Shown piece after piece: positions 7,621 to 13,651 of a stretch of 13,651 nucleotides of DNA. Position numbers and translations under genes: made by a program. The notes under the pieces are model-generated. The model made no database searches. It was not told the origin of the DNA and saw only the letters and a program-made list of their open reading frames with translations. Source of the DNA: a bacterium (GTDB taxonomy: Bacteria > JAHJDO01); the NCBI GenBank assembly GCA_030611945.1, contig JAUWOV010000049.1, forward strand, positions 1-13,651, given 5' to 3'. Positions within the stretch are counted from its first letter, which is position 1. Each line of letters starts with the position of its first letter.

Positions 7621-7643
7621 CCAATGAACATGGTCATATGACC
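7617..7643. terminator. Palindromic segment between convergent genes
   Basis: ATGACC at 7617-7622 is repeated as the right half of the perfect 12-bp palindrome GGTCATATGACC at 7632-7643. The central GGTCAT (7632-7637) can therefore pair with either flank. It occupies the whole gap between the converging solute-binding protein and lipoprotein genes and might act as a bidirectional transcription boundary. The stems are short and no strong T-run follows. Confidence 0.3.
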
Positions 7644-8494
7644 TATTTTGTCAGTAGGTTTCTTATATGCTCCTGCCACTTCTTATCAAGACGTGCTAGA
7701 TTCCCAAAATCAAATTGATAACTGCTTCTAAGCGCGTCTTCAAAACTCTTTCCGTCACGCAAAGCTCTGCAGAGATTAGTAAATCTATACTGCCCTTTGC
7801 TTCTCAGAAAATTTACAATGGAATAGGATACGCTGTAGAAAAGCAGGACTTTTCCCTCGTCTTCAGGATAATTAGTTCTATCAAGCACTTCGTAAATGGA
7901 AAGAATTTCCCCTTTTTTTAATTCTTTTTTTATTGCGTTTATATATCCTGATTTGCTTGTTAGCTCCATATTCACAGCAAGCCCTTCATTGAACCATAAC
8001 GGAATATTGTTCCCCATATAATCTGCAAGGATTAGATGGGTCATTTCATGAGGCAGAAGAGAGGTTAAAAAATTTACTGACTCTTTATAGCTTTTTATCT
8101 CTCTTTTATTATAATTAGCAAATCCTGCTGACCAGGATGGGATGTCGTTGTTTTCCAGATAATTCTTCTTATTTGCATATATGTATATCTTACATCTTTT
8201 ATCAAAAGTCCAAAATTTCCCAAATCTGGTAAAGCCTACGTTTCTGTCCAACTGCTTATAATATTCCTCTGCTTTGTATCCAACACGCTGAGCAAAACTT
8301 AAATTGTCTTCATAATATACTGAAAAATGATCGGATTTATAGATTTCCCAGTCTTCAGCTAGTATATTACATCCTAAAAAAAGAAAAAATATAAGCGCAA
8401 AAAATAATGTCAAATGCACATTAGGGCAGGTGCAAGGCCTGCCCCTACATTTCCCGATTAAACCTTTGAGCATTTGGATTTTGTTATTTGTCAT
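7643..8494 (-). CDS. Putative zinc metallopeptidase lipoprotein (peptidase MA-like, gluzincin)
   Basis: The open frame is 283 codons. HEMTH at residues 149-153 and WFNEGLA at 167-173 form a gluzincin zinc site (His149, His153, Glu170, catalytic Glu150), as in peptidase MA-like/DUF1570-type proteins. Residues 28-42 are a hydrophobic run ending in the lipobox FLGC, so Cys42 would be lipidated and the enzyme membrane-tethered outside the cytoplasm. The substrate is unknown. The start is uncertain. The ATG at 8494 overlaps the thiE stop by 11 bp, suggesting coupling, but residues 13-27 are encoded by a dispersed hairpin repeat, giving a strange Cys/Pro/Arg-rich n-region. GTG at 8419 or TTG at 8413 would begin directly at the signal sequence. 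The ligand spacing appears complete, so an active enzyme is likely. Confidence 0.82.
   Translation of the reverse strand: MTNNKIQMLKGLIGKCRGRPCTCPNVHLTLFFALIFFLFLGCNILAEDWEIYKSDHFSVYYEDNLSFAQRVGYKAEEYYKQLDRNVGFTRFGKFWTFDKRCKIYIYANKKNYLENNDIPSWSAGFANYNKREIKSYKESVNFLTSLLPHEMTHLILADYMGNNIPLWFNEGLAVNMELTSKSGYINAIKKELKKGEILSIYEVLDRTNYPEDEGKVLLFYSVSYSIVNFLRSKGQYRFTNLCRALRDGKSFEDALRSSYQFDFGNLARLDKKWQEHIRNLLTK
8416..8459 (-). repeat. Dispersed GC-rich hairpin repeat, copy A
   Basis: On the minus strand this 44-nt unit matches 13466-13509 at 41 of 44 positions. Its core forms a hairpin: GGGCAGG (8424-8430) pairs with CCTGCCC (8438-8444) around a 7-nt loop. It lies inside the 5' end of the lipoprotein open frame. 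Confidence 0.85.
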
Positions 8495-11500: not shown

Positions 11501-13372
11501 ATGTATTTAGAAAAGATAGAAACTCCAAAAGATTTAAAAAAACTGGATATTAAAACACTTCCTTTGTTGGTCTCTGAAGTAAGGAAACTGATAATCGAAA
11601 CCGTTTCTCAAACTGGCGGGCATCTTGCTTCAAACCTTGGGGTTGTTGAACTCACAATAGCTCTGCACTATGTCTTTAATTGCCCTGATGATAAGATAGT
11701 CTGGGATGTTGGGCATCAGGCATATACACATAAAATTCTTACAGGAAGAAGAAACCAGTTTCATACACTTCGGCAATTTGGAGGAATGAGCGGTTTTACA
11801 AAAATAGAAGAGAGTGAGTATGACGCTTTTGGCACAGGGCATGGAAGCACCTCAATCTCAGCCGCTCTTGGTATGGCATGCGCGCAAAAATTAACAAGCA
11901 ACAACGATAAACTTATAGCTGTAATTGGAGACGGAGCGCTTACAGGAGGTATGGCATTTGAGGCTTTAAATCATGCAGGACACATTAAAAAAGATATAAT
12001 TGTAATCTTGAATAGTAACGAGATGAGTATATCTCAGAATGTTGGAGCATGGTCTCAGTATCTAAATAGAATTACAACTAATCCAATATATAACAGAGTT
12101 AGAGGCGATCTGGAAGTAGTTCTAAAAAGAGTCCCAATGTTTGGCAGTCGGTTAGTTGATAGCGCAAAGAAATTAGAAAAAAGTCTTAAACTGCTTCTTA
12201 CGCCCGGAATATTATTTGATGAATTAGGTTTCCGTTATATTGGCCCAATTGATGGACATAATATCCCATTGCTTATAGAAACGCTTGACAATATCAAAAT
12301 TTTTAAAGGGCCTGTATTAGTGCATGTATTAACAAAGAAAGGAAAAGGATATAAGTTTGCAGAAAAGAATCCCACAAGATTTCATAGCGCAAAACCATTT
12401 AATATAAACACAGGTATATGGAGAGATGAAACTTCAGGGAATAAACTTCCAACATATACAGAAGTATTTGGAAATACACTGGTAAAATTGGCGCAAAAAG
12501 ATAAAAGAATAGTAGCAATAACTGCAGCTATGCCGGACGGAACAGGACTTAGAGAGTTTGCTCAAAAATTTCCGGACAGATTCTTTGATGTCGGCATGGC
12601 AGAACAGCATGCTGTTACATTTGCAGCAGGCTTAGCTTTAAAAGGGTTAAAACCTGTTGTTGCGATATACTCAACATTTCTACAGCGCGCATATGATCAG
12701 ATCTTGCACGATGTATGCTTACAAAAACTGCCTGTAATTTTCGCAATTGACAGGGCAGGTATAGTAGAAGGAGATGGGCCGACACATCACGGCGTTTTTG
12801 ACCTTTCATATCTTTCAATGATTCCAAACATGACGATTATGGCTCCAAAGGACGGGGGTGAATTTACGAGCATGCTTTCTAAAGCAGTAGAATATAATCA
12901 GCCCGTTTCTATAAGATATCCAAAAAATTATGCTGCGAAATCCAGTTCGGTTGAGGAGATTGAAATTGGGAAAGGAGAAATAGTCAGAGACGGTACTGAT
13001 ATTGCGATATTAGCAATAGGAACAATGGTCTATCCTGCCTTAGAAGCAGCAGAAATATTAGAGAAGAAGAACATAAATGCTTCAGTAGTGAATATGAGAT
13101 TTGTTAAGCCGTTGGATACGGAACTAGTTCAGAAAATAGCTTCTAAGGTAAAAAAGATCGTAACAGTTGAAGAAAATGTTGTTGCCGGCGGATTTGGTAT
13201 GAACGTTGCAGAATATGTAGAGGCGCAAAATTTTGCGTCTCCATGTCTTGCGTCTCTACATATCGGATTACCAGATAAATTTATTGAACAGGGCCCGCGG
13301 CATCTCCTGTTGAAGAAGTATAAACTGGATGGTGCTGGTATTGCAGAAACTATCCTGAACTGGGTCAATTGA
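11501..13372 (+). CDS. dxs: 1-deoxy-D-xylulose-5-phosphate synthase
   Basis: A TPP enzyme condensing pyruvate and glyceraldehyde 3-phosphate to DXP, entry to the MEP isoprenoid pathway and source of thiamine thiazole. 623 residues, normal length. SQTGGHLASNLG is at 36-47 and WDVGHQAY at 68-75. The TPP/metal motif GDGALTGG is at 143-150 with NSNEMSIS at 171-178; the middle Asp of the common NDNEMSI reads Ser172, but the metal ligand Asn173 is kept. The activating Glu368 is in AEQHAVTFAAG and DRAGIVEGDGPTHHG at 417-431. Residues 572-587, between GGFG (563-566) and IGLPDKFIEQG (588-598), are encoded by a palindromic repeat that keeps the frame. No ribosome site precedes ATG 11501, 3 bp after the ferredoxin stop, so translation probably depends on coupling. 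Confidence 0.96.
   Translation: MYLEKIETPKDLKKLDIKTLPLLVSEVRKLIIETVSQTGGHLASNLGVVELTIALHYVFNCPDDKIVWDVGHQAYTHKILTGRRNQFHTLRQFGGMSGFTKIEESEYDAFGTGHGSTSISAALGMACAQKLTSNNDKLIAVIGDGALTGGMAFEALNHAGHIKKDIIVILNSNEMSISQNVGAWSQYLNRITTNPIYNRVRGDLEVVLKRVPMFGSRLVDSAKKLEKSLKLLLTPGILFDELGFRYIGPIDGHNIPLLIETLDNIKIFKGPVLVHVLTKKGKGYKFAEKNPTRFHSAKPFNINTGIWRDETSGNKLPTYTEVFGNTLVKLAQKDKRIVAITAAMPDGTGLREFAQKFPDRFFDVGMAEQHAVTFAAGLALKGLKPVVAIYSTFLQRAYDQILHDVCLQKLPVIFAIDRAGIVEGDGPTHHGVFDLSYLSMIPNMTIMAPKDGGEFTSMLSKAVEYNQPVSIRYPKNYAAKSSSVEEIEIGKGEIVRDGTDIAILAIGTMVYPALEAAEILEKKNINASVVNMRFVKPLDTELVQKIASKVKKIVTVEENVVAGGFGMNVAEYVEAQNFASPCLASLHIGLPDKFIEQGPRHLLLKKYKLDGAGIAETILNWVN
13216..13260 (+). repeat. Palindromic repeat embedded in frame in dxs
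   Basis: TGTAGAGGCGCAA (13216-13228) and TTGCGTCTCTACA (13248-13260) are inverted copies with 12 of 13 matches. An inner near-palindrome GAGGCGCAAAATTTTGCGTCTC shares the left arm, so two alternative hairpins are possible. The first ten bases TGTAGAGGCG equal the start (minus strand) of the hairpin repeat at 13434-13459. Confidence 0.75.
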
Positions 13373-13433
13373 CTTTTAAGCAATGTTAAAATAGAATAGC
13401 TAATAGAAAATGATAAAAATTTAATCTGGGGAT

Positions 13434-13459
13434 GGGCGGAGGCAAGCCCCGCCTCTACA
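13434..13459 (-). repeat. Dispersed hairpin repeat, divergent copy C
   Basis: Read on the minus strand, this 26-nt core (TGTAGAGGCGGGGCTTGCCT followed by CCGCCC) matches the core of copy B (13476-13501) at 21 of 26 positions. It can fold through GGCGG/CCGCC. It lies only 6 bp from copy B in the opposite orientation. Confidence 0.65.
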
Positions 13460-13465
13460 ATGTGG

Positions 13466-13509
13466 AATCGGGAAATGTAGGGGCAGGCCTTGCGTCTGCC
13501 CTAATATGC
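13466..13509 (+). repeat. Dispersed hairpin repeat, copy B
   Basis: Forty-one of 44 positions match copy A (8416-8459, minus strand), beginning AATCGGGAAATGTAGGGGCA. The core folds as GGGCAG with CTGCCC. No T-run follows. Confidence 0.85.
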
Positions 13510-13579
13510 TAATAAGACTCCTGCAAAATAGGGAAATAGTGGAAGACAGGTAGGGAAACTGAGGGTAAAAAAGATAAAA

Positions 13580-13648
13580 ATGCCAACGGAAGATAGAAAA
13601 GAAAGAATAAGAAGAATTTCAGAAGAAATTAGGCGAATTAAGGCATAG
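13580..13648 (+). CDS. Possible 22-residue basic peptide
   Basis: An ATG at 13580 opens a 22-codon frame ending in TAG at 13646-13648. The product would be a highly charged Arg/Glu/Ile-rich peptide beginning MPTEDRKERI, compatible with one amphipathic helix. GAGGG at 13561-13565 is 14 nt upstream, farther than usual for a ribosome site. A purine-rich sequence easily yields such a peptide by chance, so this is a weak call. Confidence 0.15.
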   Translation: MPTEDRKERIRRISEEIRRIKA

Positions 13649-13651
13649 TTT

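Follow-up and report, generated by a model that had tools for sequence, protein, structure and literature searches.

A REP-like palindrome in frame within dxs is shared across a bacterial genus and probably derives from a GTAG REP/RAYT system

Introduction

How does a palindromic repeat come to be read as part of a core enzyme? The question is raised by dxs, the gene for 1-deoxy-D-xylulose-5-phosphate synthase, on a bacterial contig of 13,651 nucleotides (G000:C26; this whole stretch of DNA is referred to as the window) from a genome of 1.66 Mb in 119 contigs (G000). A preliminary description of the window had noted inverted arms of 13 bp inside this gene, and had interpreted them as a mobile palindromic element, related to hairpin repeats just downstream, that had landed in dxs without breaking its frame. 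Here we compare the locus with four sister species of the same genus (G001-G004), whose Dxs proteins are 88-90% identical; the remaining genomes that were searched are related at the domain level only.

Results

An in-frame palindrome within dxs

The features of the gene and its palindrome are as follows.

11501..13372 (+): dxs, 1-deoxy-D-xylulose-5-phosphate synthase, 623 aa, intact (TIGR00204, 863.6 bits, cut-off 466)
13213..13263 (+): palindromic element, in frame, wholly within dxs (inverted-repeat search)
13220..13241 (+): nested palindrome GAGGCGCAAAATTTTGCGTCTC, the first hairpin of the dxs element, with its GTAG head at 13217-13220
13233-13241 and 13248-13256 (+): 9-mer TTGCGTCTC, present twice in the dxs element, spacing 15 nt

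The dxs product contains the Pfam domains DXP_synthase_N, Transket_pyr and Transketolase_C. The palindrome is confirmed and extends beyond the 13 bp originally noted: its outer arms, at 13213-13228 (ATATGTAGAGGCGCAA) and 13248-13263 (TTGCGTCTCTACATAT), are 16 nt long, complementary at 15 of 16 positions and 19 nt apart. Its core, GTAG...CTAC at 13217-13259, codes for V573-L587. The element thus lies wholly inside the gene, keeps the frame and contributes protein sequence to a core enzyme, in agreement with the preliminary description. Among 100 dinucleotide-shuffled versions of the whole window, none contained an inverted repeat as good as the dxs palindrome (arms of 16 with at least 15 matches, loop 3-30).

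In G000 the element is organized as GTAG-hairpin-CATGTC-half hairpin-CTAC, in which a complete hairpin is followed by half of a second, inverted hairpin. RNA folding gave z = -2.8 for a 76-nt stretch and z = -4.9 for the element alone, and in an alternative fold (hairpin 13220-13241) the GTAG is left unpaired. No terminator pattern was found in 13150-13651, and no Rfam family matched in the window.

The C-terminal domain is confident in an AlphaFold model of the G000 Dxs. Because the whole-chain comparison with Dxs in the PDB gave a TM of ~0.57 and an rmsd of 21, we used the model for local secondary structure only. The element segment is predicted to take in the last part of helix 565-575, a loop and the first part of strand 584-590. 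In E. coli Dxs (2o1s), the corresponding sequence, which precedes IGLPD, is SGVNEVLMAHRKPVPVLN.

The palindrome is as old as the genus or older

The element is not specific to the G000 lineage, as had been considered, since all four sister species have a palindrome at the same dxs codons. It is perfect in G001 (GTAGAGACGCAAAATTTTGCGTCTCTAC), has one change in G003 (GTAGAGATGC) and one in G002 (GTAGAGACGCAG), and reads GTAGAGACGCAAGATGTTGCGTCTCTAC in G004; close relatives have kept the palindrome rather than eroding it by synonymous changes. Its age is therefore at least that of the genus. No empty dxs site is present among the five genus genomes, and the entry event itself was not seen.

The length of the segment between the conserved GGFG and IGLPD motifs is 18 or 19 residues in 59 of the 67 Dxs sequences from outside the genus, 15-16 in the sisters, and 21 in G000 only. 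Because the sisters are shorter here than the outgroups, the element must have replaced native sequence. The idea of an extra insertion into Dxs, which the preliminary description had favored, or of an additional loop, is ruled out by these segment lengths.

The G000 element is 15 nt longer than that of the sisters, and the extra length has copies of the 9-nt direct repeat TTGCGTCTC at its borders; deleting one 15-nt unit between the repeats turns the G000 element into the sister form. We built joint trees of Dxs and LpxK (FastTree) with two distant outgroups. On nucleotides, G000 branches first (support 0.95); on proteins, it adjoins the outgroups (0.90, one weak node). The trees are compatible with a gain of the 15 nt in G000 as well as with their loss in the sisters.

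The hairpins downstream of dxs are of a different type

Arm sequence is indeed shared with the repeats downstream of dxs, where TGTAGAGGCG is found exactly at 13450-13459 (-) and CTTGCGTCT at 13489-13497. These hairpins are not the same repeat as the dxs element, however, but asymmetric REPs, with an unpaired GTAG head, that belong to the same superfamily. The window contains the following copies.

13434..13458 (-): asymmetric REP GTAGAGGCGGGGCTTGCCTCCGCCC, downstream of dxs, GTAG head unpaired, half of an inverted pair (BLAST copies)
13477..13501 (+): asymmetric REP GTAGGGGCAGGCCTTGCGTCTGCCC, the other half of the inverted pair, GTAG unpaired (BLAST copies)
8424..8448 (-): asymmetric REP GTAGGGGCAGGCCTTGCACCTGCCC, within the N-terminal end of the ORF 7643-8494 (-)

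The two REPs in 13434-13501 are inverted and close together, as in BIME/REPIN. The copy at 8424-8448 and its flanks match the 13477 copy at 93% (BLAST), and a first pattern for asymmetric REPs matched two places.

A dispersed family of symmetric palindromes

A search of the G000 genome for the arms of the dxs element gave different results for the two sides: the exact 10-mer TGTAGAGGCG occurs only in the window, whereas the other arm, TTGCGTCTCTAC, forms a perfect pair again in lpxK (G000:C53; identified with TIGR00682). The dxs and lpxK elements share an identical 12-bp arm pair. The lpxK element is 28 bp long with perfect arms, is also present, identical, in G001 and G003, and shares the reading frame of the dxs element (VETQDFASLR).

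A looser symmetric pattern matched 24 palindromes in the five genus genomes, compared to 2 with a reversed control, and thus further copies of the motif exist. They are 28-29 bp long and have the form GTAG-hairpin-CTAC, with stems that vary in sequence while complementarity is kept. About 20 of the 24 lie in frame within genes and 4 are intergenic, although for the few copies near N-termini the true start codon is uncertain. The genes with in-frame copies include those for an O-antigen ligase/TPR protein and pyruvate:ferredoxin oxidoreductase, plsC, comEC, xseA, a gene for an epimerase, an hsdM-like gene and two Y1 transposase genes; the reading frames of dxs, lpxK, plsC, xseA and comEC are open through the element. 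GTAG is paired with CTAC in the dxs of the sisters and in lpxK. Because of the paired GTAG in symmetric copies, we refer to them as REP-derived or REP-like, and not as REPs.

Outside the genus, palindromes of this kind are widespread. At least one was found in 100 of 385 genomes across the domain, and some genomes have dozens (66, 74, 69 and 157), against at most 4 per genome with the reversed control in the 385 genomes. Among 64 sampled copies from outside the genus, 26 lie within an ORF of at least 150 aa, a loose test in which some ORFs are surely spurious. The intragenic placing looks stronger in the genus (20/24) than outside, the two counts having been made by different rules. An identical or near-identical 28-mer, GTAGAGACGCAA-NNNN-TTGCGTCTCTAC, is present in G331 and G064, which are unrelated genomes from other families; G064 has 69 palindromes of the GTAG...CTAC pattern.

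Filled and empty orthologues

Comparison of orthologues within the genus shows filled and empty sites. In lpxK, the identical 28-mer of G000, G001 and G003 stands where G002 and G004 have 27 unrelated nt, with a net difference of 3 nt (filled +3). The lpxK-empty species are nested among the filled ones in the tree, which requires loss, recombination or repeated gain. The plsC gene is filled in G001 and decaying in G003, and is shorter in G000, G002 and G004, where the site reads GTAAAGAC. In xseA, only G001 is filled, at the C-terminus, and the others have GTAGAGA with a stop codon soon after. The comEC site is filled in G001 and in G003, which also lacks ~50 residues upstream, has a half palindrome in G002, and has none in G000 and G004. 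The comparisons of these four genes show replacement and decay, not clean insertions.

RAYT-type genes carry GTAG hairpins inside their reading frames

Y1_Tnp genes are present in all five genus genomes. Within one group of these genes, seven loci of the genus (L179, L181, L182, L185, L186, L237 and L227) contain GTAG hairpins in their coding frame. The hairpins occupy either or both of two sites flanking the HUH motif, and are inverted where both are present; the same scan found no internal GTAG hairpins in the Y1 genes L175-L178, L180 and L184. With the NCBI model NF047646 (REP-associated tyrosine transposase; curated cut-off 80 bits), L179 (83.8), L182 (81.1) and L177 (82.9), the last without an internal REP, score above the cut-off, and L181 (71.8), L185 (67.4), L186 (65.6), L237 (65.0) and L227 (51.5) below it. 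L227 has lost the sequence between the two sites, including the HUH motif, and retains one symmetric palindrome, GTAGGGGCGAACGGCTGTTCGCCCCTAC. In two RAYT-like ORFs from other genomes (L275, L289), the second site likewise holds a symmetric palindrome.

Discussion

Origin of the dxs element

The dxs palindrome is probably an old REP-derived copy (~28 bp) that entered the gene before the genus diversified, and a GTAG REP/RAYT system is its most likely origin. An inverted pair of GTAG REPs would have been placed by a Y1 (HUH) transposase of the RAYT type, and deletion between the two hairpins would then have shrunk the pair to one symmetric palindrome, GTAG-hairpin-CTAC. Such a deletion is possible because each hairpin is itself palindromic, and inverted hairpins are therefore also direct repeats. 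The single palindrome left in L227 is the basis of this collapse model. In essential genes only frame-keeping events would survive. The G000 dxs copy may represent a partly collapsed pair and the sister copies the fully collapsed form, and the element would have taken the place of native codons in the C-terminal domain of Dxs, where a helix ends and a loop leads into a β-strand. Beyond tolerated protein sequence, no function is needed for the dxs element. The earlier proposal of a mobile element holds in that the palindrome is a copy of a dispersed family; its movement by RAYT, and the order of events in dxs, we infer from the sequences. Against an origin from REPs, a pure REP insertion would not explain the loss of native codons of similar length, and GTAG is unpaired in the published GTAG REPs, as the available text describes them (PMC3733652), but paired in the sisters. 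More broadly, we tentatively speculate that inverted REP pairs in RAYT frames may collapse into symmetric coding palindromes that replace host codons, and may thereby have fed peptides repeatedly to core enzymes such as Dxs and LpxK, not only in this genus but perhaps in several phyla as well.

Replacement of native codons could also have come about if the palindromes spread, transposase-free, by template switching during replication or by gene conversion between hairpins. Microhomology at the left end is consistent with this route, as native xseA has GTAGAGA and plsC has GTAAAGAC where the element begins, and so are the small net length changes (lpxK +3 nt); moreover, many genomes have such palindromes, perhaps not all of them with RAYT genes. 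Yet the genus does have RAYT-type genes that carry these hairpins, and the native GTAG-like starts may be what is left of decayed copies, as is the comEC half palindrome in G002, so that we consider spread of this kind somewhat doubtful. Recent transposition into dxs of the G000 lineage alone, with the addition of a peptide, would account for the 21 residues of the G000 segment, above most Dxs, but the palindrome occupies the same codons in all four sisters and only 15 nt differ, which makes this reading very improbable. Equally hard to credit is a chance palindrome that arose in situ under protein constraint and is related to no element. The peptide agrees tolerably with the Dxs pattern that precedes IGLPD (e.g. 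...LH), but against chance stand the absence of a match in all 100 shuffles, the identical 12-bp arm pair in lpxK and the symmetric cousins in many genes.

A different possibility is that selection retains the hairpin for its base pairing, which would serve the dxs mRNA or DNA (through stability, pausing or protein binding), with the peptide as a by-product. The arms remain paired in all five species. In the dxs element, 9 of 10 codons keep the same third position across these species (28 of 604 windows are as good or better), 9 of 10 codons are identical in the three filled lpxK genes (14 of 355 windows), G-U pairs remain in RNA after both of the arm changes seen in dxs (A to G in G000, C to T in G003), and the elements fold strongly (z from -4.9 to -9.0). 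These observations are suggestive of selection on pairing in the dxs and lpxK elements. However, the pairing statistics are weak, and gene conversion, hairpin-templated self-correction or protein constraint would look alike. The family also occurs in unrelated genes, the plsC and comEC copies decay, and translating ribosomes would melt the hairpin. We therefore regard retention for such a function as unlikely, and any RNA role of the dxs hairpin would be a reading of its base pairing.

Relation to known systems

An origin of the dxs palindrome in a GTAG REP/RAYT system builds on published features of such repeats. GTAG REPs inside genes, their in-frame translation and their association with RAYT have been described (Di Nocera et al., 2013; PMC3733652). 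In the available text of that work, these REPs resemble the elements studied here in being dispersed hairpins of 20-40 bp with GTAG at one end and compensatory stem changes, some of them intragenic and translated, and in their association with RAYT. They differ in that here GTAG pairs with CTAC, the symmetric copies in the genus are mostly intragenic, and the dxs copy persists genus-wide at one site, where it replaced native codons. The available main text of the same paper names DNA repair and other genes, and does not name dxs or lpxK. RAYT proteins are described as cleaving single-stranded REPs beside the hairpin, with the GTAG being important (PMC8266576). RAYT genes flanked by inverted REPs are known as REPtrons (PMC2817692; PMC3116915). 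As in the available accounts of REPtrons, RAYT-type genes of the genus are accompanied by inverted REPs; here, in contrast, the inverted REPs do not flank the gene but lie within the RAYT frame, to either side of the HUH motif.

Rickettsia palindromic elements (RPE), in the account that PMC3733652 gives with reference to Ogata 2002 and Claverie and Ogata 2003, are likewise palindromes translated in frame inside core genes. By that account they differ in having a CGTC tag, compared to the GTAG/CTAC ends here, and no tie to a transposase, and RPE-1 is longer. A literature search by element sequence gave nothing relevant, and a search for REPs inside RAYT frames gave no paper beyond PMC3733652, although others may have seen them. 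As far as the available literature shows, the symmetric copies with paired GTAG, the persistence in dxs through the genus, the replacement of native codons and the REPs inside RAYT frames are new.

The genus provides a clear case in which a tiny repeat has been durably incorporated into essential enzymes, and for lpxK, plsC, xseA and comEC it offers filled and empty orthologues side by side. It makes testable the distinction between insertion and overwriting, the keeping of the frame, and the feeding of protein evolution by REP/RAYT. Symmetric 'extragenic' palindromes are, in this genus, mostly intragenic. Very small dispersed hairpins are reportedly also present in cyanobacteria, where Elhai et al. 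are said to have described, in 2008, small dispersed repeats that are thought to be mobile; we liken these to the present elements by description, not by sequence.

Other observations in the window and in the genus

Near residue 295 of xseA, a stretch of 23 residues, KKEKLFSLLSSYALRHPEERLFQ, is present in G002:C127 (L257) and G004:C8 (L256) and missing in G000 and G001; it is not palindromic as far as seen. Shortly 3' of dxs, the sisters have a frame that looks, by eye, like uvrB, and in G000 the region 3' of dxs (13373-13651) has the REP pair and then the contig end. The ORF 7643-8494 (-) encodes a Peptidase_MA_2 protein, in which the REP at 8424-8448 is read as GKCRGRPCTCP, just before a likely signal peptide; an alternative TTG start past the REP would leave it non-coding. 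A perfect 32-bp palindrome of a different type, GACCCCATCCCGAAAGCTTTCGGGATGGGGTC, is located at 58-89 of the window, 5' of the first gene.
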